NCBI GenBank assembly: GCA_024449915.1
Contig: JAMZAV010001291.1
Coordinates: 1-64,000, forward strand
Length of the DNA: 64,000 nt
Direction of reading: 5' to 3'
Source of the DNA: Sweltsa coloradensis
Lineage: Eukaryota > Arthropoda > Insecta > Plecoptera > Chloroperlidae
Under the pieces are notes generated by a model. The model was given only the letters and a program-made list of their open reading frames with translations. It made no database searches and had not been told where the DNA came from. Each line of letters begins with the position of its first letter. Positions within the stretch are counted from its first letter, which is position 1. Both the position numbers and the translations under genes were made by a program. This document shows, piece by piece, positions 3,717 through 48,500 of the stretch.

Positions 3717-4462
3717 TTTTGGATGAGCGTAGCGAGCTTAGCGAGCGAAGTGAAGACTTCAATTTTATTGACACCCCAAAAAATTTAGCTCGGGTGTTTT
3801 TTTTTTTTTTTTTGTCTGTTTGTTCGCACGATTCCGGGCAAACGGCATAAGCGATCTTGCTGAAAATTGAAGGGGATCTTCGAAATCTCTGAACTTAGAC
3901 GTGCCACGTTTTTTGGTACAATCGAAGAAATATTTCTCATGAATATCGTACTTTTACGATTTTTTTCGATTTTTAGTGCGATATTTACGTGACATTTGGT
4001 TCGATTCTGACCAAACGGGTAGGACTACAACGTTCATATTTCACATGGACATTAAGATTATGCTGATGTAGTACCTTTTGAAAGAAAAAGTTGAAAAAGT
4101 TAGCCAGAAACTATAGAAATAAAGGTTTTAATATGTGTTTTTCGATTTTAAGTGCGATATTTTCGTCACATTTGGGTCGATTCTGACCAAACAGGTGGGG
4201 CTACAACGTTCATATTTCACATGGACATTAAGGTTATGGTGATATAGAACCTTTTTAATGAAAAAGTTGAAAAAGTTTGCCAGAATCCATAGAAAGAAAT
4301 GTTTTAATACGATTGTTTTGAGGTTTATAATAACAATTAACAAGTAATGACAACAATTACCTACAATTCATTCACAAAGCACTTGCAAAGGAAAAGTGGT
4401 CCCACGCAAACTAAAAACTTACGCTCATCCATCAACGCGGCGGGACTTTAGCGTTTTCCTAG
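3717..4462 (+). mobile_element. Non-autonomous Helitron/Helentron-like element, copy 1
   Basis: This copy interrupts the minus-strand RTE-like LINE just before its FADD box. It starts at TTTTGGATGAGC and ends in CTAG. The subterminal inverted repeat GGATGAGC (3721) pairs with GCTCATCC (4423-4430). A 3' stem AACGC (4434-4438) and GCGTT (4451-4455) lies 7 nt before the CTAG end, the usual Helitron terminal hairpin. It has no coding capacity. Related copies lie at 19,277, 20,750, 36,459 (antisense), 39,947 and 55,320. Confidence 0.7.
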
Positions 4463-4676: not shown

Positions 4677-4735
4677 AACAAAGGAATAATAACAAGAGTG
4701 AAAGAGATTTTCACTCTTGTTATTATTCCTTTGTT
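4677..4735. repeat. Perfect 27-bp hairpin with 5-nt loop
   Basis: The arms at 4677-4703 and 4709-4735 are exact inverted copies around the loop GAGAT. They follow a run of ACA/CA repeats (4630-4680). The structure replaces part of the RT palm of the LINE it lies in, so it arose after that element died. Confidence 0.85.
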
Positions 4736-5985
4736 AACTCCTTCCTAATTTTGCATTGCAACCCAAACTTTCCCCTCTTGGGGCTATCGTATGCCTTTTC
4801 GATATCTAGAAAAGCCATACAGGTCCTTTTTTCGGTCATTGCACTTTTCCACTTTTCCAGAAAATCAGGTCTACCGTCGATCTTCCTCTTCTAAATCCAT
4901 GCTGTTCTTCTCTTAAATCTTCTTCTACCGAGTTTCTAATTCTACAATCTATTACTCTTTCGTAGATCTTGGCGCAGTGGCATGTCAATGTTATCCCTCT
5001 ATAGTTGGCACAGTTTCTCTTGTCTCCCTTTTTAAATATAGGTACAATGAGACCCTTCTTCCAGTCTAAAGGAACTTTCTTGTGTTTCCATACAACAGAT
5101 AAGACTCTGTATAGCCATTGCATTCCCACAGGCCCTGCAGCTTTGATCATTTCCACGGCCAGCTCATCTACTCCCGCAGCTTTACCATTTTTCATTTTCT
5201 TCATTGCCAGTTCCACTTCTCTCCATGTGATGTTACCGTCTTCCTCTTCATCCTCATCTCCAGACTCTTCTCTATGAACTACCTCAGGTGTTCTTATCTG
5301 CTGTTGGTTGATAACAGGATTTAGAAGGGTTTCAAAGTACGTCTTCCCACATTTTTTTCTTCATTTCATCATCTGACACAACTTCACCATTTTCTTTAAC
5401 CAGGTTGTGGCTATCAACCTTTTCTTTTCTCCTTTTCTCGCATTATGCCATACAGCATCTTCTTGATTGATACCATACACATCCTCTCTCATTTCTTCTG
5501 TCCAGCCAAGAAACCATTTTCGACGTTCTTCTCTGACCACTGCCCGTGCATCTCTTTTATATTTGTTGTACTCGTCCCTTTGCAGTAGCTTCGTTTGTCA
5601 TATTATTACACCATGGTGTTTCTTTATACCTTCTCTTTCCATTTGTCCTACCACATACCAGTTCTGCTGCTTGAACAAGACCCTTTATTTCAGTTTTGGG
5701 AATTTCTCTAGTGACCAACACTTTATAATCTCTAGCTACATCCTTATCTTTTAGTTTCCACACCCGTATCTTCTTTTCTTGAATTGTGCACTTCTTTACT
5801 TCCTTTAGTTCTTTAAATTCGGCCACTACTAGTCTGTGGTCGCTATCCAGGGAAACCCCTGGTATAACTTTCACTTCCCTTAGATCCGGTTTTAGTTCCC
5901 CATCTACTAACTTTTTAACTTTTTGAACGATTTTGCCACAAAAACTAATGGCATTCAATCGAGAACAAAGCTTGCGGATGGTCAA

Positions 5986-6620
5986 AATTTCAACTCGATC
6001 CGAGCCTCCGTTCGAACGTTATCGCGAGACATACAAACAAACAAAAAAAAACAAACAAACAAAAAAAAAAAAAAACAGTGACTAATTTTTCCGGCAGAGT
6101 CAAATAGACTAGTTTCAGTTTAAATGGTGCATTTTTTGGTAATATCATTTAAATGATTGAATTGTTGTTTCATTGAGTTTTTATACATGAATTTAGTGTT
6201 AAAAGATAGCTAGGAAGCATTGAAACCTCAGGTACCGTTATCTCGTGAGTACCCACAGTATTTAATACGCATTTTAAGTTTTAAATATTGCATTTTTCAC
6301 GGAGATTTTATGTTGACATTTCGTATCTAACGAAAACAAATGATATTGTTTATTTTCAATTACTATAACCAACAACATGACAGCTACAAAACACGAGGCA
6401 TTTTTTTGAACTATTGCTTAAGAAAATGTCAATAAGTAACATTGAATTTGAGTTTACGAAATATGACATTTCCCCAAAGGGTATATACAGCAACAGAGGA
6501 ATGCTTGAGAAATTATTTCATACACTAATTAATTAAACGTAAAGCTGACGTTCATCAGGCGCTTGATACTTATGTTGCTACGGGTCAAGCTGAAGCATTT
6601 CTAGTTAGGCCTAAATCAAA
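5986..6620. other. A-rich repeat junction and 5' region of LINE B
   Basis: 5986-6080 has a run of A-rich CAAA units of a kind seen at the ends of dispersed repeats. 6080-6525 is AT-rich with no supported gene. From about 6529 a frame opens that runs into ORF1 of the next element, so the real start of ORF1 may be upstream of 6625. The exact 5' end of the LINE was not resolved. Confidence 0.4.
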
Positions 6621-7560
6621 TAAATTGGACCTACATAAGTCGACTGAAACTTTGCCGAAAATTCTTTCACAAAACTATACTACAAACAAAGATTTGCAAC
6701 ACAGCCACAGTAGGCCTATTGATGAAAAAATGTTAGAACTTAAGAAGAAATTACTAGATTCAATGGATAACCAAGAAAAATTATATACTATTGTTGACAA
6801 TCAAGAGGGTATTATAGATAATTTGAAAACAAGATGCAATAACTATAAAGAGCTTTTTGAAATTTACAAAGTAAAACTAAACATCGTCGAAAAAAAACTG
6901 GAACTTTCTACTCAATCTAAATGTTATAACCAACTACAGCCTTGTGTGCTGTCAGAAATCGGCACAAATAGCGCCGGTAGTAGTGAGATTTCAATTGAAT
7001 CAGATCCACTATGTAATGGCAGTAAACCCTCTGCCTCGTTTCAGTGTCGCAAACACTCTATTGAATCATCCAATCTCCCTTTAATATCAAGTGAAGGTAG
7101 ACCTCGTGGATCAATCCATGTGCAACATCAGAAGCTTAGACCTACTCTTGGTCCGCGCAAGTCAACGTATACACAAGAGCCACCTAAAGTGCGTATGTTT
7201 AGTGACAGCCATGGACGTGAGCTAAGCCACAGAATCACATCTCAGCTATCTGGAAACTATGAAGTCTATAACATTTGCAAACCTAATGCAATGCTGAAAA
7301 ATGTAGTTGAAGACGTCCCTTCTTCCATGCCTACCTTAAACTGCCGAGACTGGACTATTATAATTGCTGGCACAAATAACATGCCAAATGACTGTGAAGC
7401 GATTGTGGATGATATGAAAAAACTTATTAAAACCCACGGTCGTGTCCTCTGATCATAGTTGGTATACCATTTAGATATGACACGTTAAATTTCAACAAAG
7501 AATCCTAGACATCAATCAGACTATTTATAAATTCATCACTGCACAAAAAATTGCTATTTT
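6529..7560 (+). pseudogene. LINE B ORF1, N-terminal half: coiled coil plus SGNH/GDSL-type esterase
   Basis: About 6730-6930 encodes a charged heptad-rich segment (LELKKKLLDSMDNQEK, then a KVKLNIVEKKLEL stretch) that should form a coiled coil, as in many LINE ORF1 proteins. A short Ser/Pro linker leads to an SGNH hydrolase: block I FSDSHGREL near 7198, a GTNN block near 7370, and a GLHLNAGG block with the likely catalytic His near 7605. A stop at 7450-7452 and a frame change divide the esterase; the missing piece (IIVGIPFRYD) is read in another frame at about 7452-7486, and the original frame resumes by 7561. CR1-group ORF1 proteins are known to carry an esterase. The true start codon is unclear because the frame stays open back to 6529. 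Confidence 0.7.
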
Positions 7561-8586
7561 GTGGACATGTCTGTAATGAAACGATCAGAGTTTACTGTGC
7601 ACGGTTTGCACCTGAATGCTGGTGGTAGATCCAAACTAACATCCCAACTGGCAGAGATTATTAATGCACGAAATTCGCGCAGCATCACTTCACTGCACCA
7701 TGAAATACATGAAACCAATAGCAACTCTACGTTCAACAAGACTACTTCAACCCCGAGCTGCAACTTCATGTTATGTGAACACCAAAGTGATATTTTCTCA
7801 TGCCCACTCGACACACCTCTTGTACATTGTGTGGCGGAAGACTTGAAGCTTAACCGTGGAATTGCAACTAAATTTAAATCTACATTTGGCAGTATTGATT
7901 ACCTTCGGTCTAGAGAGCCCAGAGTTGGAGACTCAGTTTTTATCCGAAGCAAGGGTAGACTTATCTGCAACTTGGTGATCAAACAGCAGTCGCATCACAA
8001 GCCTACGTACCATAATGTTGCCAAATCGCTAAATAGCTTAAAAAAGTTCTGTTTATTTTATAATATACAAGAACTAGCAATGCCTAAAATTGGATGTGGC
8101 CTAGATGGTCTTCATTGGCCTACCATAAAAAATATGTTATCCAAAACTTTCATAAATTCCAATATTAAAATCAACGTTTATTACATACAGTCAAAAAGAA
8201 AGCAGCCACCAAAAACAAGGCAAACTACAAGTAAATCAGAGCACAAAATGTTCAACTCCAAAAAACAACCATCAAATAAGCCCCAAGTTCCAAGAATGCA
8301 AGAAGGTTTACGCAGCTGTCCAGTGAGTTTGGAGTTCCGACTCCAATCAGAACTTAATGAGGAATGTGCAAAGCAACTACCATTCATGATGCACTCATCT
8401 GTTGACCCCGGCGTGAACTCTACGTCGACCCCTGCTAGCACACATCACTCATCATCTATATTTTTACGAATAGAAGAGTCGACTCAACAAACTGTAAAGC
8501 CTAAACCTTCATCTTCAGAACAACTTCACCAGTCAATCCATGTAAAGCAAAAACTAAAAGCTAGTACAAAAAACCCCAAGGGGTAA
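7561..8586 (+). CDS. LINE B ORF1, C-terminal half: TARG1/OARD1-like macrodomain
   Basis: Residues 1-30 of this open segment finish the SGNH esterase (GLHLNAGG). Residues about 73-210 match the TARG1/OARD1 macrodomain layout: a DIFSCP start, LVHCVAEDL, RGIATKFKSTFG, then NLVIKQQSHHKPTY, MPKIGCGLDGLHW and a final strand INVYYI. TARG1 removes ADP-ribose from acidic side chains through a Lys (K84 in human) and an Asp (D125). The matching Lys (residue 141, in VIK) and Asp (residue 182, in CGLD) are both present. A basic, Ser/Pro-rich tail follows to a stop at 8586, and the frame shifted by one stays open to about 8750. The position between esterase and endonuclease makes this part of the retrotransposon protein rather than a host gene. 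I know of no LINE family described with this domain pair, but I could not search. Confidence 0.75.
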   Translation: MDMSVMKRSEFTVHGLHLNAGGRSKLTSQLAEIINARNSRSITSLHHEIHETNSNSTFNKTTSTPSCNFMLCEHQSDIFSCPLDTPLVHCVAEDLKLNRGIATKFKSTFGSIDYLRSREPRVGDSVFIRSKGRLICNLVIKQQSHHKPTYHNVAKSLNSLKKFCLFYNIQELAMPKIGCGLDGLHWPTIKNMLSKTFINSNIKINVYYIQSKRKQPPKTRQTTSKSEHKMFNSKKQPSNKPQVPRMQEGLRSCPVSLEFRLQSELNEECAKQLPFMMHSSVDPGVNSTSTPASTHHSSSIFLRIEESTQQTVKPKPSSSEQLHQSIHVKQKLKASTKNPKG

Positions 8587-8789
8587 GCCTAGCCTTAGCT
8601 TCCAGCGTGACCCCATTCTCACACGGTCATCAGCAAGGCCAAACATGGAAGCCCCTATTTTAGCAAACAAAACAAAAACTAAAGTCAAAAAAGCTATCAC
8701 CTCGTCTTCTCAGGATTTTCCCCGCACCACCCCCAGAAAAAACAAAACATAGCCTCGTCACAGGTCCCTCTCAGAACACATTCTAAATT

Positions 8790-11660
8790 AGTTTTTTCTA
8801 AATATACAATCAATAAGGAATAAAATAGAAGAGCTTGAGCTATTCCTCAGCGCTTCTTCTCCAGATATTCTCTGTATAGCAGAGCACTGGCTTACAATTT
8901 CTGAAATTGACTCCTTTTGTATCCCAAACTATGTTAATGTTGATATCTTTTGCCGCTCCTCATTTATTCATGGAGGTGTGGCTATATTTGCTAACCTCAT
9001 CTTAGCATTTCTCCTATAGCTGAAATTAAAAACTTTAACATTGAAAAGTCTTTTGAATGCTCTGGGGCTTCATGGCACATCTCTAATTCTCATTTTATAA
9101 TCATATCTTTGTATCGATCTCCACTTAGTGACCCTAAAGTTTTTTTCTCCTCCTTAGAGAAAATGCTAGTGTTTATAACAAAGAAATTCCCCAAGGCCTC
9201 TTACATAATAACTGAGTGGGTAGACTCTAAATAAAATTTATTTATTTTATTATTTAATTTGTGGAGACCACAATATTGACCTCTTAACACAATCTACCAC
9301 CAGCACTGAACTAATTGATTTACTAAATTCCTTTCAAATGTATGCTACCATCACATCTCCTACAAGAGTCACACTTTCCAGTAAATCCTTGATTGATAAT
9401 ATTTTTACCTCCATCGACGAATCTCTTATCACTGCCACAGTGCGTGATCCAGGGCTTTCCGACCATCATGCTCTTTTTCTTAACCTATCCCTCTCCCATC
9501 ATCACTCAAAGATTCTGACTCAAAAACGTTTTTTCAATGATAAAAATATTGCTCACTTTATCTCACAGCTAGGTAGTGAACAATGGTCATCTTTATCATT
9601 TACAGCAGATGCTTATGTTTTATACTCATTTTTTGTGTCCACTTTCTTGGTTCACTTCAATGAAGCTTTTCCTCTGAAAACAATTCAAATTCGGAAACCA
9701 GTAGGTAACCCATGGATTACTCAGGCACTTCGCTGTGAGGGAAAAAACACTAAGAAATCTTCACTCATCATTGAAACACTCCCAAAATAGATCAGTTAGT
9801 AAAGAGCAATACTTGGCCCTCAAAAAGTCTCATGCCAAAACATTAGACAATCAAAACTTCAATTTTATAGCCGCAAAATAGCCGACTCCTCTAACATCTC
9901 TAAAATGGCCTGGTCTGTAATCAAATCTCAGACTTCTTCGCCCATATCCAAAGAAAGTATCACCATAATGCATGAAGGAAAACTAGTATCTAACCCAACT
10001 TCATTAGGCAATATTTTAAATACCTTTTTCACCACCATTAATGTGCCACCAGCAATTGCAACAGGGAATTCTAAACCCTCCTCACAATATCACCCAAAAA
10101 GGTTCCCTAGCCCAGTTCAAACCATTTTTCTAAAGCCAACCACTCCCAGTGAAGTGGCAACTATATTGAAAAAACTTAGCACCAGACACTCAGCTGGGCT
10201 GGATGAAATTCCAGGATCACTCTTGGCAAAATGCTCCCACTTTTTATCTCTTCCCCTATCTTACATTATTAATGAGTCTATTTCATCAGGTATCTTTCCC
10301 TCTGATCTTAAAATAGCAAAGGTAATACCAATCTATAAGAAAAAAGGGAAAAAATCTGACAAAAACAACTACCGCCCCATCTCAATCTTATCGTCTTTTT
10401 CTAAAGTTTATGAATACATCATGCATGACCGCCTTATGGCACATCTCAATCATCACAACGTTCTTTCACCAAGTCAACATGGTTTCCTTAAACATAGATC
10501 AACAACTTCCGCTCTTTTCAGTTTCCTCTCACATGTTTATTCCGCCCTTGATAAAGGAGAACAGGCAGTTAGCATATTTTATGATCTTAGCAAGGCCTTT
10601 GATTCAATTGATCACAGGACGTTTCTGTCAAAAATGGAGTACTATGGGATCAGAGGTATTGCTCAAAGTTGGCTTTCATCATACCTATCTGGACGCTCAC
10701 AAGTAGTCGCTATCCGCACTGTTGACAATAATTTAACAAAAACAGTTCTCTCAGATCCTCAAAAATTTGTTAAAGGAGTCCCTCAAGGCTCGATATTAGG
10801 TCCCTTAGCTTTCCTCCTTCATGTTAATGACCTGCAGCTACACCTAACCGGTGGACTTCTTCTACAGTATGCAGATGACTTCAGTCATCTGCTAACTGCC
10901 CCCAAACACAATATATCTAGCTTTCCAATGATATTAAATCAAAAAGGCTGTGCAAATGTCTCAGTACTGCCAGCAAAAAAATTCTTTCATTATCTCTTCC
11001 CAAAACAGTATACATGAATTTTCATACTCCCAAAATATACCCCTGTCAAGCCCTCTAATCCAAATTGGGAGTAACCACATTATTCGCTCTGCTTCATTTA
11101 AACTTTTAGGATTAATCCTAACAGAGACTTTGGATTAATCGAGCCAAGCAAATCTTGTTTCAATCTAAAATTCTTAGTGTGTGTTGGATACTCAGGAAAC
11201 TTAAAACTGTAGTCAAACCCCATATTTTGTTTATAACATATTTTGCATTAATCCACTCCCACCTTTTGAATGGTACCCTTATCTGGGGTGCATCACCTCA
11301 GGCAAAAAGGGTCTTCATCCTCCAGGAAAGAGCAATCAGGATAATAGCGGCGGCTTCTAGAAAGCGATCTTGTCGAGAACTCTAGCGCCAGCTACAGTTC
11401 CCAATACAAGCATTGTGTCCTGATTCAGTCATCATCTCATTTTGTTCGCCTTAATGCCCACATCTTTCAACAAAACACAACTGTTCATGATCATTTTACA
11501 CGTTCCAGTTACTTAGCATCAATTATTTATAATAACCTTCCGAATAAAATTCGCTTATGCCCATCTGACAATTCTTTCAAATCTAATCTTAAGTCCTTTC
11601 TGCTTAAAAACAGTTATTACTCACTTCATGAGTTTCTATCTGACGGCTCTCCCAAATAAA
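8790..11660 (+). pseudogene. LINE B ORF2: AP endonuclease and reverse transcriptase
   Basis: The endonuclease begins near 8800 with an NIQSIRNKIEEL segment, a PDILCIAEHWL box and GGVAIFA. It continues in a second frame with LYRSPLSD (about 9113) and is interrupted at 9214. After the interruption it resumes with GDHNIDLL at 9263 and ends with DNIFTS and the SDHHALF catalytic box near 9460. The RT follows: KNNYRPISIL near 10,365, SQHGF, YDLSKAFDSIDH near 10,580, GVPQGSILGPL near 10,780 and YADD near 10,870. The remaining C-terminal blocks (WGASPQA, ERAIRIIAAASR, NNLPNKIR) lie in shifted frames up to a stop near 11,658. At least four lesions mean this copy makes no intact ORF2. The clade looks like CR1/L2/Jockey. 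Confidence 0.75.
9214..9262 (+). mobile_element. 49-bp insertion resembling a SINE-A 3' tail
   Basis: The endonuclease frame of LINE B stops at ...ATA ACT and resumes at GGA GAC CAC AAT. The intervening 49 bp begin with GAGTGGGTAGACTCTAAATA, which is also the tail of the SINE at 45,717-46,251 (there at 46,210-46,230), followed by the same TTTATTTATTT-type run. It looks like a heavily 5'-truncated SINE copy landing in the endonuclease exactly before its metal-binding GD-N motif. Confidence 0.6.
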
Positions 11661-11933
11661 TTACCTTGTTGATTGTCATTAATATCAATATTTACAATGT
11701 AGTAATTATTATTGTGTGCATCATTGTAAATGTAATTGCATTTTTTTATGTTTCATATTGTATTATTACATTTATCTATGTATTAACAAAAACATTTGTT
11801 AACCTTAATTTTATTATAACCTTATTCATTTCACTCCACCTATCTCTCTCTCTCTAGAGAATAGGTGATAGTGTTATACTTTACTCTGTATCAGTCAAAT
11901 GAATAAAATTTACTTACATACTTACTATAATCT

Positions 11934-12570
11934 ATGACTGTTTTTTGTTCACTATCAGCTATATCTTGTGATCCTCTGACTTTCTCTCTTCTCATACCAG
12001 CTATTTCCTACCTTCAAACCATGTCTCCGACATACTTCCAGGAGTTTCTTTCTTTCTCTGTTTTGCCTTCCATAACCATGTGGGCTCATTAGATCTTCGT
12101 ATCCCTTTCGATCGCTTCCAATGTGCGCATTAAAATCTCCCATTGATATGATATTATTTTCAATGCGACTTTCCAAATCTAGTTCAAATTCGTCTTTCTC
12201 TACTTTACTGCATTCCCACTTGTGATGTATAGACTTGTATAAGTGTTAGGTCTTTACTTTTAAATCGAAACTTGATACCTACTCATGATCCTGTCATTGA
12301 CATATGCCACTCCTCACACGTTGTCTCGTAGTCCTGGGCTCACCATTATTCCAGACCCATGTTTGGCTTCATCCTCATTTCCTGACCAATACAGTTTATA
12401 CCCATCTCTCAGTTCAGCTTCTACATTCTCTTTCCATTTTGTTTTACTTAGTCCGAACATATTCAATCTTCTTTCCTTGGCGACATTTACGATTTCTTCC
12501 CTTTTTCCTTTCAGTGTTCCGATATTCAGTGTTCCAAATCGTAAGCATGTCGTTTTTCAGTGTTTTCCGT
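11934..12570 (-). pseudogene. RTE-like LINE, endonuclease N-terminal part
   Basis: Read on the minus strand, an APE-type endonuclease starts near 12,555 with GTLNIGTLKGKREEI, then a TKWKENVE box and GSGIMVSPG (near 12,340). It continues past a stop to LIQVYTSQVG (12,210) and the metal-binding MGDFNAHIG box near 12,130. The reading ends in TVIDY at about 11,930, where LINE B was inserted. The remainder of the same ORF is at 2.9-5.98 kb. Stops within YSW-- and after LRDNV show it is dead. Confidence 0.7.
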
Positions 12571-13216: not shown

Positions 13217-13252
13217 GACTAAAAGCAAATGGATTTCTTTTTGTAAAACGTA

Positions 13253-14182
13253 ATGCCAAGAAGACAACCAGAAACAATCGCGGAACCAGGAGTTGTTTTA
13301 GTGACCAAACGTCCTATTAAAATGCCTCGAGAATTTACAGGTGAGTCTGAAAGTTGGTGCGAGTGGTTGCAACATTTTGTAAAAATTTCCGTTATTAATA
13401 AGTGGTCAGATGTTGAAAAATGTGAGTTCTTGGCAGTGAGTTTAGACAGAAGAGCCGCCGACAAGTTTGAGGATATTTCTCCAGAAGTAAAAATTGATTA
13501 TGGAAGTTTGTGCAGGGCGTTACACTTAAAACTAGAACCACCAGAGGAAATTGAGCTACATAAAACTGCTTTTCGCATGAGGCGACGACAACCATTGGAG
13601 ACTGTAGACACTTTATGTCGCGAGATGAAGAAATTAGCTGCTAGAGCCTACCCTAACATGGACCATGGTACTCGTGATGAGCTTACCCGTGATCAGTTTG
13701 TTGAAGCTTTAGGTGAAGGCAATTTGCTTCAGCTAGTACGTCAGTCTTGTTCACGAACATAAGAAGCTGCTACGAAAGTTGCTTTGGAACAAGAAGTAAA
13801 TTTGCAATGTGAAAAGAGAGACCTTTGGACAGTAAGTCCTGGACCGTCAAATAGTGTTCATGCACTGGAGGAGTTGCTTAAAAGTAACACAATAGCCATG
13901 CAAGCAATGACAGATACCATGAAGCACATGATGAATATGCCTGTGACGGCAAGGCAGCAAGAGAACATTCAGTCAAGGCCTCATTATAGGCCTAGATCTC
14001 AGATGAAATGCTGGAGTTGTGGACAGCCAGGACATCGACATGTAAATTGCCGTAGCCTAATGCAAGACAAGCAACACATTCAAGCCCTATGTTTCAACCA
14101 GATTTTCGGGCTGAGTATCAGCCAGGATATTTACATGGGAGTCGGCTACATCAGGAAAACTAGTGGAGGCTGGCACACATGA
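13253..14182 (+). pseudogene. Gypsy gag with CCHC zinc knuckle
   Basis: The capsid/nucleocapsid precursor starts at ATG 13,253 after a short leader. The matrix/capsid-like part contains the PREFTGES and WLQHF segments expected of Gypsy gag. A zinc knuckle CWSCGQPGHRHVNC is encoded near 14,009-14,050 and would bind RNA during packaging. An in-frame TAA at 13,760-13,762 splits the protein; the frame then continues with no shift. The protease lies in the +1 frame and its open reading overlaps the gag end from about 14,115, so expression of pol in an intact copy probably used frameshifting. Confidence 0.85.
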
Positions 14183-14543
14183 CCAATGTGGGGAGCCAGC
14201 CAAGAAAAATATACTTGTACTAATTATAGGAAATGTGGCAAGTGGAGGTGCTGTGTTAACAAAGGGAAAGGTACAAAATCTTGACATGGATATTTTAATC
14301 GATACAGGTGCTGCTATTTCATTACTACGATACAAAGAGTGGAAAGATTCAAAAGGGAATAAAAACCAGTTACGAGACTCTAGTTGGAATGTTGTCAACG
14401 CAAGTGGTGAATTTATGGCTACAAAAGGAGTTGTTGATGTAAATCTACGGATTGGGAAGAAGACTTGGGTCCACCCAATGTTTATTATGGAAGGAATTAC
14501 ACAGCAGTGCATTCTGGGGACTGACTTCTTAGAAAAGCACTAA
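14115..14543 (+). pseudogene. Gypsy pol: aspartic protease
   Basis: The retropepsin active-site box LIDTGAAISLL is encoded near 14,294-14,326, and the ILGTDFLEKH segment near the C-terminus corresponds to the conserved G-D-F-L end of Gypsy proteases. It would cleave the gag-pol polyprotein. A TAA at 14,541-14,543 and a one-base frameshift near 14,582 separate it from RT. Confidence 0.85.
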
Positions 14544-14583
14544 GGTGATGTTTTAATATCTCAACATATGTTACGATTAGAGG

Positions 14584-16685
14584 TCAAATTACGCCAATAA
14601 CAATAGGTAGGCCTAACAGTAATGCAACTCATCAAGTGTGTCATGTATCCATAGCGGAGACGGTGGTAGTACCTACCGGACAAGAGTATTTAATTAGAGG
14701 TAAATTTCGTGGAATAGCTCCAAAAGAAGGATTCCTAGAACCGACCCAATCTTTTGTTGGAAAGACTGGGGTGCTAGTGGCTAGAGTTCTGGTTAAAGGA
14801 GATGTTCCACACATGCCGATACGTGTTTTAAATTCAACCAGTAAACCGATAACATTATACAAAGGGACAACCGTTGGAGAATTTTGCTCTTGGACGCCGC
14901 CAGTTGAAGTGTGCCAAGTGGATACATCTGCAAACAGGTGTCCTGCTTCTCAATTGTTTAATTTTAACCTAGATCATTTATCAACTAAACAAGCCAACGA
15001 TATTGTGAGATTAATAGAAGAATTTGAAGATGTTTGCTCGTACGGAGCTCATGATCTTGGTAGGACTAAGCTTACTTATCACCGCATTGTTACTGGGAAT
15101 GCTATGCCGGTGCGTCAACCTCCACGGAGAATACCTCTTCACCACCGGGAACAAACTAAGAAGATTGTTGATGATATGCTTAATCAAGGAGTGATTCAGC
15201 CATCTGTGTCTCCTTGGAGTGCTCCTGTCGTCCTAGTTAAGAAGAAAGATGGATCAATGAGATTTTGCATTGATTGCCGCTTGGATGACGTCACTACCAA
15301 GGATGCATATCCTCTTCCTCGTATGGGTGACATGATGGATTCATTTAGTTTGACACGGTTATTTTCCAAGCTACACCTGGCGAGTGCTTACTATCAATGT
15401 GAGGTTGCTCCAGAAGATCGAGAAAAAACTGCTTTTGCTACATCATGGGGTGGTTTGTACGAATTTAAAGTTTTACCATTTGGGTTGTGCAATGGGCCTA
15501 GCACATTTCAGCGTCTAATGGACTTGGTTCTAGCCGGATTGAACTGGTCTACTACTATGGTATACCTGGATGATGTTATTGTTTTTGCCCAAAACTTTGA
15601 TGAACACATGATTCGTCTTATTTCAGCGTTTGAGAGAAGCAGGGTTGAAAGTTAAACCATCCAAGTGCGAACTTTTTCAAGAAAAGGTACAGTTTCTAGG
15701 TCATGTTATTTCGGCACAAGGCATCTCAACTGATTTGGAGAAAGTATCTGCAATAGCTAAATGGTCTATTCCATCTACAGTTGAGGAACTACATTCATTT
15801 TTAGGGACTGCTTCATATTATCAAAGATTTGTAAAATCCTTTGCTGACATTGCTTCTCCACTTTATCGGCTTACTCAAAAAGGTACTAAATATGTTTGGA
15901 ACGAAGAGTGTGATAGTGCCTTCCTGCAATTAAAAAATTGTTTGGTGTCAAGTTCCGTATTAACACATCCTCAGCCGGAGTTACAGTTCATACTGGATAC
16001 TGATGCAAGTGGAACAGGCATTGGTGGTGTGCTGAGCCAGATACAAGATGGAGTGGAACGTGTTGTTGCATATTTCAGTCGCACTCTTACCAAAACTGAG
16101 AGAAACTACAGTGTTACAAGAAGGGAGATGCTTGCACTACTCAAGTCAGCGCAACACTTTCGACACTATCTCTATGGTAAGCGGTTTCTCGCAAGAACAG
16201 ATCATAGCGCACTTCGGTGGCTTCGTTCGTTTAAAGACCCAGAAGGACAAGTGGCTAGGTGGTTGGAACAACTCGAAGAGTTTGACTTCGAGATTCAACA
16301 TCGCCCTGGAAAGAACCATGGGAATGCAGATGGACTGTCTCGTCAACCCATAATCAAGTCAGGTCCAGAGATTGTGTTGAATATTGATACTTCATGGGTA
16401 CCAAAATGGTCAAATGAAGAACTTCAATCTTTGCAAGCTGAGGACAGTGCATTATTTCACGTTGTACATTGGATAAGAAATGGCGCAAAACTATCTTATT
16501 TTGAAGTAGCTCCAATGGGGAAAACGGTTTTGAGTTTATGGGCTCAATGGAGTCGTCTTTTGGAAAGGAATGGACTAGTATATAGGTTGTGGGAAGAAGA
16601 TAATCATCCAGACAGCTTACAGCTTCTACTACCGAGAAGTTTGATCTCGGAGGTATTAAACGAACTCCATAGTTCACCAACGTAG
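14584..16685 (+). pseudogene. Gypsy pol: reverse transcriptase and RNase H
   Basis: The RT frame reads from about 14,584 (the piece before 14,636 lacks a start). Boxes seen: SPWSAPVVLVKKKDGS, FCIDCR, DAYPLPR, LPFGLCNGPSTFQ and the catalytic YLDD near 15,567. Motif A reads FSKLHLASAYYQ; Gypsy enzymes have Asp where this copy has His, so a metal-binding residue is lost. A one-base frameshift near 15,620 moves the rest of RT and RNase H to another frame (from 15,630). RNase H shows its acidic residues in DTDASGTGIGG, TRREMLAL and ARTDHSALRWL. A connection domain runs to the stop at 16,685, close to the start of integrase. Confidence 0.9.
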
Positions 16686-17716
16686 GAGGTCACTTAGGGA
16701 TATCTAAAACTTTGGAAAAGGTTCCAGGAAGGTTTTATTGGCCAGGGATGCGTGAGGACATAGAGTTATGGTGTAAGAGGTGCACAGCTTGTTGCAGCCG
16801 CAGAGCCCCTATACCAGGGTTGAGAGCACCACTAGTAAGCTATGGATCAGGTTTTCCACTTCAAAGAGTATCGCTTGATATACTGGGACCCTTGCCTTTG
16901 TCAACAAGAAAGAATAAGTACATCATAGTAGTGGCCGATCATTTCACAAAATGGGTCGAAGCGTATGCAGTTCCGAATAAAGAAGCTGAAACTGTTGCTG
17001 AAAGGTTAGTTACCGAGTTCATATGTCGATTTGGAGCTCCAATGGAAATCCACAGCGATCAAGGTCGACAGTTTGAATCACGGCTGTTTCAGGAGATGTG
17101 TCGGATGTTAGGCATGACAAAAACAAGAACCTCACCGTACCATCCTCAAGGTGATGGCTTGGTTGAACGTTTTAACCAAACGCTTCTTGAAATGCTTAGC
17201 AAATGGGTAAATGAAAATCAGACCACCTGGGACGACAGATTACCACATGTAATGATGGCATATCGTTCAAGTCCTCAAGCATCTACTCAATTCAGTCCAC
17301 ATTTTCTTATGTTTGGAAGAGAAGTTCAACTACCACTGGTTGTAGTGTTTGGCCAACCTCAACAACAAGTGGCAAGAGAGAGTGATTATGTGTTCAAACT
17401 AAGGAATGATCTTGAAGCAGCTCACCAAGCAACACGGGAAAAATTAAATGTTTTACAGAAGATTCAAAAATCCTATTACGACCGAAGATGTGCAGGAAAT
17501 CAATATCGGGAAGGGGATCGTGTTTGGCTGTTAAATACTGTTGTGAAGCCTGGACGTACACAAAAATTGCCTTGTCCTTGGGAGGGTCCATATGCAATTC
17601 AAAAACGTCTTTCCGACGTCACCTACCGAATTAAAGCAGATGGAAATGGACCCAATGGAAGACGTCTTCGACAGCGTATAGTTGTTCATTTCAACCGATT
17701 GAAACCCTTCTTTTAA
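16686..17716 (+). pseudogene. Gypsy pol: integrase
   Basis: The N-terminal HHCC zinc site is split: its first His (ELH) lies before the 16,685 stop, while GGHLG and WCKRCTACC lie after it in another frame. The catalytic core keeps all three acids: D in LDILGPL, D in HSDQG and E in GLVERFNQT. A GPY/F-type C-terminal module (PWEGPYAIQKR) ends before the stop at 17,714-17,716. No chromodomain follows. The integrase part is otherwise intact. Confidence 0.88.
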
Positions 17717-45508: not shown

Positions 45509-48500
45509 AATATTAGGTATATTGGTATCATACATAGAAATTTAAAAATTGCCTCCACCGGGGATTAAACCCGGAACCTTGGCTGTCCTTGTGTTGGTAA
45601 GAGCAGGGCCCGGACAGTCAAGGTCCCGGGTACAATCCCCGGTGGAGGCACTTTTTTAATTTCTGTCTATAAAACCATCAAAACAGCATCATAGTTGCCT
45701 ACTATAAAACCAAGGTTAGTGTGGCTCGTTGGTCTAGTTTGTGTGGCTCGTTGGTCTTGTGTGTGGCTCGTTGGTCTTGTGTGTGGCTCGTTGGTCTTGT
45801 TGTGTGGCTCGTTGGTCTTGTTGTGTGGCTCGTTGGTCTTGTGGTTAGCATATCTGCTTCCAATGCAGAAGGTCCAGGGTTCGATTTCCGCAAAAGTCAG
45901 AAGTTTTTTAACTTCTGATTTGGACTTAAGTCCATCAGTTCTTGTCGTAGGAGTTTGTAAACGGTGACTTTGGAGCCGTCTTAGCAACGAAGCACATAAT
46001 AAATTCAGAGTTGTGCTGAATCGGCCTTGTTGATTCTGGCGTTGATCTGCGGGTGTTCGCACTGTCCATACCACTGATTGCTATATTTCCTATTAAAAAT
46101 ATTGATCTTTGGTTGGTTATCGCTCACTCGTCGATTGCGTCGGGGCCTACAGGGTTGGCTTGGTCGATTTGATTTAAAGTCCCCCGCTGAAAATCAGTTA
46201 TATAGGCCTAACTGAGTGGGTAGACTCTAAATACAATTTATTTATTTATTTACACATATATGTAAAGTATACTCATTAAAGGTACAATTTAACCAGTTAT
46301 TTTCTAAATACCTACCTGTACTAATATTATGGTTTTTGTAGGTTTGAAACAACGTTTGCTTTGTCAAATCTTTGTGTCAAATGTAACCCAACAAAGCTGG
46401 AACCAGAAGAGTTTTCGAAGCTCAGCATTTCCCAGATACATTGCCAAGGAAACTCAAAGCCCTCCACAATCAATACCACTCAGACCGGTCCTAACCCCTT
46501 CTCACCAATGAATACTGCAAAAAAAGAGAACCCATCAGAGCATGAAAAGGAATCTGGGATTAAAACACGGAAGGTAACAAATAATTTTTATCCCAACTTT
46601 TCTTCTGACCGCGACGGACATTTCCCGGAAAACAAACAAACTTATCGTTCAGCTTCGTCTCAACCTAAGCAAACATTTTACTTATGTGCTAACGTTAGAA
46701 ATGCTGACCATTTGAAACAAGAATGCGTTTATGAAGAGGGTTTTGGTTATGTATACAAAATATGCGAAACCAACAGCCAGTCGGCAAATGCAGAAAGTCA
46801 AAAACAAGTCGATGAGCAATCTCAAAATGGCTTTAACACGCCCAACAGCAAGGGGGAAAGTTATAAAGATGGCAAAGCACAAATTTACACACAACAGAAA
46901 TGGCCCGCACTTGATTCTTACATAAAGAATATGAACGGCGAACACCCAACTGTAAACAAGGATTGTGAAGAGCAAAAACCAAGCAAAGTGAATGCACCGA
47001 GTGCACTAGACACACCTGAGAGCGCGGCTCACAAACAGATCCAGTGCAAGCAGAAATCTGACTATTATTGGTTGGCCGTTTCCTATGCTAAAAAAATGCA
47101 CATTGAAGAATCAAGTGAAGATGTTGGTCAACAAGGAATAAAAGAAGACCCTGTTATGAAACGCTTTGACGCAACCACTGGTGCAATCAGGAACACTTGC
47201 ACGGTTCCGCCGAAAAATACCACATACGGTAGAGCTCGCGCCAGTGTTTCCCACGAGATGCCATCTCAAAACATCATTGACCCACAGTTTGACCAGAAGC
47301 AAATGAATGCCACCAACAAGATAAGCGAGGCGTTCACGCAAGCAGCAAGCACTTCAAGTGATTGCGATTGGGCGCAATGGATTCCACCCGGCCCTGTGAA
47401 ACACATTGAAACCTCTCACCGTGGCAAGACGCAACGCTCCTCTTCAGAGCATGATTGTGAGTAAAACTAAAGTAAAAACACTTGAAATATTTAAGAAAGT
47501 GCATTGAATCCAGTTATAATTCATGTCTTACAGTATGCTTATGAACTGAAACCTACAGTCAGTGTGTTTAGCAAAAAAAGATTTTGCACCTTTCTATATA
47601 ATTAGGGCCCCATAAAAATGTACACATTCAAGTTTTGTAGCACTTTTAAAAAAAATAGCATTAGTTAAGTATATAATAATAATTATTTGTCAATGGTGTT
47701 AACTGCTAAATACACATTTCATCTTGCAATGTTTTGTTGCAATGAAAGAACTAAAATAGTTGAACAAATGCATTGGACATTCAATTTTGTATTTACTTTA
47801 TTTAACATCCAGCTAATATTAATAGTGAAAATTAGCAATTGTTCCATTTTGCCATAAATTTACAAAAACTGGCTTTTTGACATAATGAGTACAAACTCTA
47901 ATTAGCAAAAATTAAAATGATTATGATACATCTATAAACTATCAGAAGTTGGTCAAATATGCTTTAAAATAAATTTCTACATTTATCTAGCATTTATAAT
48001 TTAAAACAAAATTTATGGGACCCTATAACATATTTGTCGCACTCTTCTTTAACAACAATGAAACAAATAAATAAAATAATAAATAAATAAATAAAATAAA
48101 TCAAGAGACAGGTTGTTCAGGATGTAAACAAACTAAAACAATGCACAATGTTTTAAAATTCAAAGAAATGAAACATTTTTAGACTCACAAATTTGAACTG
48201 GTTGGTAGATTTCATAGCCACCACTTTTCATTTCTATAAATGTGCATTTCTTTAGTTTGTTAACGTCGTCGGACCTCAACAACCTGTGGCTTGTCCTTTG
48301 TTTTGATTAATTTGTTTCATTGTGGTAGTCGACTGTTACTCTAGTAATGGTTGGGTAAACTCGAGCCAACTTTTCTTACAATGTTGAATGTCCATTTAAA
48401 AATCCCTTGAATCCAGCTGAGTCGGGTTGTTTCACATACATTCTGGGCCATTCTTTTACCTCTAAATTTCACCCAAAAATTTAAAGAGGGAGGTTCTTTA

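Follow-up and report, generated by a model that had tools for sequence, protein, structure and literature searches.

The ORF1 proteins of CR1/L2-lineage LINEs are described as a patchwork of domains (PMC4120745), and packaging of the element RNA is the presumed task of ORF1 proteins (PMC3905857). For the ORF1 esterase of zebrafish ZfL2-1, a catalytic triad of S143, D279 and H282 and an oxyanion hole with N195 and G165 have been reported (PMC3905857). TARG1 acts on proteins that carry mono-ADP-ribose, on O-acyl-ADP-ribose esters, and on ADP-ribose attached through phosphate to the ends of nucleic acids, and its catalytic pair is Lys84 and an acidic residue at position 125, printed as Glu125 (PMC7050489); the human residue aligned at this position in our comparison was Asp. 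TARG1-like homologues are present in numerous viral genomes, few of them with all essential residues (PMC4245714). By title or start of abstract, none of the matches listed from the open PMC literature described a macrodomain in a LINE, in agreement with a preliminary description of the present locus, which knew of no account of the combination analysed below. Neither macro nor ADP-ribose appears in the main text of a survey of ORF1 from 448 Jockey-superfamily elements (PMC4120745), and the string transpos has no occurrence in a macrodomain survey (PMC4245714).

The window, the whole 64,000-nucleotide stretch of Sweltsa coloradensis contig JAMZAV010001291.1 analysed here, carries on its plus strand a nested non-LTR retrotransposon at 6020..11935, extending from a 5' untranslated region to an A/T-rich 3' end. 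These borders are approximate, because no exact repeats of at least 9 bases shared by the two border regions were found. The element is flanked by minus-strand frames (4836-6018 and 11955-12556) resembling pieces of another LINE, of which the reverse transcriptase piece scored 25.3 bits with Pfam RVT_1, below the 29.6 cut-off. ORF2 of the nested element includes an AP-type endonuclease in broken pieces (8792..9790, plus strand), for which the Pfam scores were below cut-off (Exo_endo_phos, 16.4 against 24.5 bits; Exo_endo_phos_2, 22.9 against 27.4 bits), and a reverse transcriptase (9803..11017, plus strand) with an RVT_1 score of 91.5 bits. Eight PDB sequences were matched by the latter, namely four LINE-1 ORF2, three R2 and one RNA-directed DNA polymerase, and by sequence the enzyme is of the LINE/R2 type. 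We take the look of the element to be CR1/L2-like. Within the window its reverse transcriptase matched that of the outer element at 27.8% identity, and no further copies of the nested LINE were detected there except for a single 39-base DNA match. This stretch, in the broken endonuclease region at 9209-9247, recurs at 46209-46247 with 97% identity and may belong to a small insertion by which ORF2 was disrupted. By our tally roughly ten frame breaks are spread over 5 kb, and the single copy examined is decayed and dead.

Several other features were recorded in the same window. At 13247-17716 there is an LTR retroelement of the Ty3/gypsy type whose open frames are long; its protease, reverse transcriptase and integrase were matched by Pfam, and its gag-like frame had no match. 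A 176-base unit is repeated in two tandem copies at 3962-4309 with 89% matches, a near-palindrome at 4677-4735 aligns over 59 bases with its reverse complement at 91.5%, and a 379-codon open frame without Pfam match is located at 46325-47464. The Rfam search of the whole window gave no matches at the gathering threshold and no tRNA.

The preliminary description had assigned 6529-8752 to ORF1 and read it as coiled coil, SGNH esterase and then a macrodomain, ahead of the AP endonuclease. The domain order was supported, with the endonuclease pieces below threshold and the reverse transcriptase clear downstream; the region itself is not one open frame, being interrupted by breaks or stops near 6530, at 7450-7560 and near 8570. 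All ORF1 pieces lie on the plus strand. The three-frame translation points to an ATG near 6426, out of frame with the rest, as the probable start, and 6426..6531 is the probable N-terminus. The first open piece (6529..7452, 307 aa) includes a putative coiled coil, a linker and the N-terminal part of the esterase. The putative coiled coil is located at about 6718-6864, and its heptad pattern (residues 64-112 of the 6529 frame) was reached by 47 of 2000 shuffled sequences, a further 510 being unscorable for want of a proline-free stretch. In the second open piece (7531..8586), which is 351 codons long without internal stop, the C-terminal end of the esterase is separated by a linker of about 35 residues from the macrodomain, and a basic tail comes last. 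For comparison, in 200 Markov sequences as long as the element, each read in three frames, open frames reached at most 233 codons. The basic C-terminal end of ORF1 follows in a shifted open frame at 8558..8752. With a putative coiled coil at its start, this architecture of the copy is well supported.

The esterase extends over 7195..7674 on the plus strand, where it is broken by the frame changes at 7450-7560. When its three-frame read, with X at the joints, was compared with PDB, the zebrafish LINE ORF1 esterase 4c1b was the best of six matches (E 6.8e-5; next 0.37); with the unbroken N-terminal piece 4c1b was the third of three (E 1.5). The Pfam Lipase_GDSL_2 score was 14.6 bits, below the cut-off of 32.9, and the predicted structure of the esterase alone had a pLDDT of 38.2. 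The SGNH esterase is thus confirmed less strongly than the macrodomain, with 4c1b as its closest solved relative. The set of conserved residues is not complete. Asn (7375) and His (7609) are kept in alignment with 4c1b, and Ser (7207), whose block precedes the aligned part, was assigned by motif and is taken by us to be the catalytic one. The Asp of DGLH in 4c1b is replaced by His at 7600, and the Gly of PGA by Asn at 7285; numbered as in the aligned chain, the two positions are D279 and G165. The esterase of this copy therefore has a disrupted frame as well as a changed active site, and the active-site changes may be mutations that arose after insertion.

The macrodomain was located at 7774..8184 on the plus strand by PDB search, structure prediction and alignment. 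Only five matches were obtained among 177635 PDB sequences at an E-value threshold of 0.001, and all were human TARG1 chains (best E 1.3e-33). Identity to human TARG1 was 53 of 134 positions without gaps, or 39.6%, a level that is a weak guide to activity. An AlphaFold model built from an alignment of eight sequences had a pLDDT of 87.9, and in a fold search with this model TARG1 structures took ranks 1-8 (TM to target 0.86-0.95), followed by DarG macrodomains. The affinity to TARG1 proposed in the preliminary description was thereby borne out in sequence and in model. The residues that it had pointed out are also in place, with Lys in VIK as residue 141 and Asp in GCGLD as residue 182 of the 7561 frame, together with the HKPTY segment. 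In TARG1 numbering, Lys84 (codon 7981-7983, plus strand), Asp125 (codon 8104-8106, plus strand), Asp20, His32 and the IGCGLD loop are retained, and Ser at residue 35 is changed to Ala. A profile search had been suggested as a check on the macrodomain; here the Pfam Macro score, 18.1 bits, fell short of the cut-off of 22, while the comparison with PDB sequences was clear. We considered whether this Pfam score counts against a macrodomain and rejected that reading, since the relatives P0003, P0004 and P0005 described below are likewise under the cut-off and the PDB comparison is clear. These observations altogether confirm, on the level of sequence and predicted fold, that the domain is of the TARG1 type within the ALC1-like class.

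Three protein searches were made for relatives. With the window's own sequence as query, 5 of 90 candidates among proteins of 377-1199 aa were significant, none above 43% identity, and none of 23 candidates was significant among proteins of 138-437 aa. With a hand-made consensus query against proteins of 267-849 aa, significant matches numbered 15 of 115. P0004, recovered in the first and third searches and not in the second, is a JGI metagenome protein of 475 aa, in which an N-terminal part without Pfam match precedes a similar macrodomain, and the tail is basic (16% Lys+Arg, compared with 18% in the ORF1 tail of the window element). The similarity of its last 35 residues to the end of ORF1, a stretch picked after inspection, was reached by 26 of 2000 shuffles; the corresponding numbers were 98 for the esterase end plus linker, 457 and 1699 for longer pieces of the tail, and 1493 for the N-terminal part. 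In the tree P0004 is the neighbour of the window macrodomain with weak support (80/59), and it may be a second macrodomain LINE. The other protein matches were gene models from aphids, a protein from a sawfly in which the TARG1 domain occurs twice, and fusions of TARG1 with a BRCT or a uracil-DNA glycosylase domain. Among the 15 matches of the third search, 11 (P0006-P0013 and P0015-P0017) have the TARG1-type macrodomain joined to PF16759, which we take to be a DNA ligase III BRCT, and P0014 has it joined to PF03167, presumably uracil-DNA glycosylase; these fusions hint at repair roles of TARG1 elsewhere.

In the best tree, rooted at midpoint, the window macrodomain was placed among most of the eukaryotic rows (89/91); the aphid rows fell on the opposite side. 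By AU tests, the alternative groupings with 12 prokaryotic or viral rows (p 0.258), with the aphid rows (0.319) and with the aphid rows plus P0004 (0.269) were not rejected. Among viral contigs, none of 24 pattern matches was confirmed for the window macrodomain as query, none of one for P0004 and none of 35 for the reverse transcriptase. With alignment A1 as query 4 of 34 were confirmed, and of these four two were translated, the reading frame being bounded by stops in L001 and open upstream in L003 over the stretch read. TARG1-like relatives were found in 20 of 50,697 phage records. Genomes of bacteria and archaea gave 69 matches, of which 34 were confirmed at 29-38% identity, from bacteria and one Heimdallarchaeota; the DNA search of plasmids gave no match. 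Two proteins of the aphid Uroleucon formosanum, P0003 and P0005, combine a TARG1-type piece (39-42% identical) with LTR-retroelement domains. They were considered as a second class of transposon with a macrodomain, and this candidate was rejected: both macrodomain pieces end at the same residue, after LDW, in the manner of a splice join, and P0003 and P0005 are therefore probably chimeric gene models. The pieces perhaps represent a multi-copy macrodomain exon in aphids.

The evidence altogether is best accommodated by a dead LINE copy whose ORF1 consisted of coiled coil, SGNH esterase, TARG1-type macrodomain and basic tail, and acted as a mono-ADP-ribosyl hydrolase on the particle and RNA of the element or on silencing proteins, a reading that we hold with moderate confidence. 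That an unrelated host gene was merely placed beside a LINE fragment by assembly or annotation is very improbable, for the end of the esterase, the macrodomain and the tail are read in a single frame free of stops over 351 codons, and further along that strand come the endonuclease and reverse transcriptase, arranged as in a LINE. Past the end point of TARG1 about 130 Lys/Arg-rich codons stay open, followed by about 55 in the shifted frame before the endonuclease; ORF1 therefore continues through the macrodomain. The same continuity bears on a capture restricted to this copy or a small subfamily, in which TARG1 sequence from the host or elsewhere would have joined ORF1 by template switch or insertion without any lasting role. 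Such a capture would fit the single copy examined, the ceiling of 43% identity in searches with the window's own sequence, and the finding that TARG1 is only occasional among invertebrates and fungi, having been lost many times (PMC4245714), but the macrodomain is in frame with the esterase and runs into the long open tail, its two border regions share no direct repeats of at least 8 bases, and its GC content (0.372) is near that of the other ORF1 pieces (0.378-0.453) and of the reverse transcriptase (0.389). We regard this capture as unlikely. The fusion of esterase and macrodomain in the parent of this copy is well supported, and the macrodomain was most likely built into the ORF1 of the parent element rather than inserted later; it may have been present across the whole LINE family. 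Intactness of the macrodomain is unremarkable because, with roughly ten frame breaks over 5 kb, the chance that its 410 bases stay intact is two in five by our estimate.

An active enzyme was likely encoded by the living element. ORF1 protein bound to the element RNA would then serve as a tethered mono-ADP-ribosyl hydrolase, in which Lys would attack the distal ribose and Asp would activate and resolve, and ADP-ribose would be released from its ester linkage to Glu/Asp or from phosphate at nucleic acid ends. The targets would be the particle and RNA of the element itself, or silencing proteins at element loci; target, benefit and role of the macrodomain are proposed here by analogy. The preliminary description had suggested that the enzyme counters PARP-dependent responses at nicked target DNA or ADP-ribose-based silencing by the host. 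Human L1 retrotransposition is reported to fall by about half when either PARP1 or PARP2 is lost and by 80% when both are (PMC8535693). A role at the nick is weakened by this dependence, because an enzyme that simply opposed PARP would be harmful to a LINE, and since L1 integration needs PARP1/PARP2, an eraser at nicks would have to serve turnover instead of opposition. The same requirement of PARP1/2 for full L1 retrotransposition (PMC8535693) would favour a macrodomain that reads ADP-ribose (mono, or on nucleic acid ends), bringing the ORF1 particle to PARP-marked nicked DNA for integration. A pure reader has no need of the hydrolysis dyad, both residues of which are kept, and we consider binding without erasure improbable. 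For the silencing version a mammalian precedent may be seen in the mono-ADP-ribosylation of KAP1 by SIRT6, by which L1 is silenced (PMC8535693, PMC8548377, PMC4695847), and ADP-ribosylation of RNA has been suggested as a mark of transposon-derived or viral RNAs (PMC7050489).

Beyond the single copy, we tentatively put forward, as possible, that a LINE lineage encodes an active ORF1 mono-ADP-ribosyl hydrolase against ADP-ribose-based silencing or restriction, in the manner of macrodomain viruses, with P0004 as a second, diverged member. The domain combination itself, seen in one dead copy, is real and surprising. The purposes of the CR1/L2 ORF1 domains are partly unclear, and an eraser of ADP-ribose among them would tie retrotransposons to a mark linked with both silencing and integration of L1. 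If a living family kept the macrodomain, the element was equipped with an eraser for a signalling mark of its host, and the use of ADP-ribosylation by hosts against retrotransposons would become directly testable with the ORF1 eraser.

Compared with known systems, the nested LINE is like ZfL2-1 (type IV, with an esterase ORF1; CR1/L2 lineage) in that an SGNH esterase, here preceded by a putative coiled coil, lies upstream of the AP endonuclease and reverse transcriptase, and unlike it in what follows the esterase: the ORF1 protein of ZfL2-1 has the esterase as its C-terminal domain (PMC3905857), whereas here the macrodomain and basic tail come after it. With TARG1/OARD1 (C6orf130) it shares the fold, the Lys84/Asp125 pair and the IGCGLD loop; human TARG1 chains are single domains of 146-160 residues, whereas the present one is a domain within a transposon protein. 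It also differs from the Uroleucon proteins P0003 and P0005, in which the context is that of an LTR retroelement. Alphavirus and coronavirus macrodomains belong to a different macrodomain class; in the fold search they appeared from rank 35 and rank 50, respectively, and the replication cycle of these viruses is different. Common to them, to the TARG1-like macrodomains of dsDNA viruses and phages, and to the element described here is a selfish element with an ADP-ribose eraser, predicted in the present case, and if this is true LINEs stand beside macrodomain viruses as mark-erasing elements.
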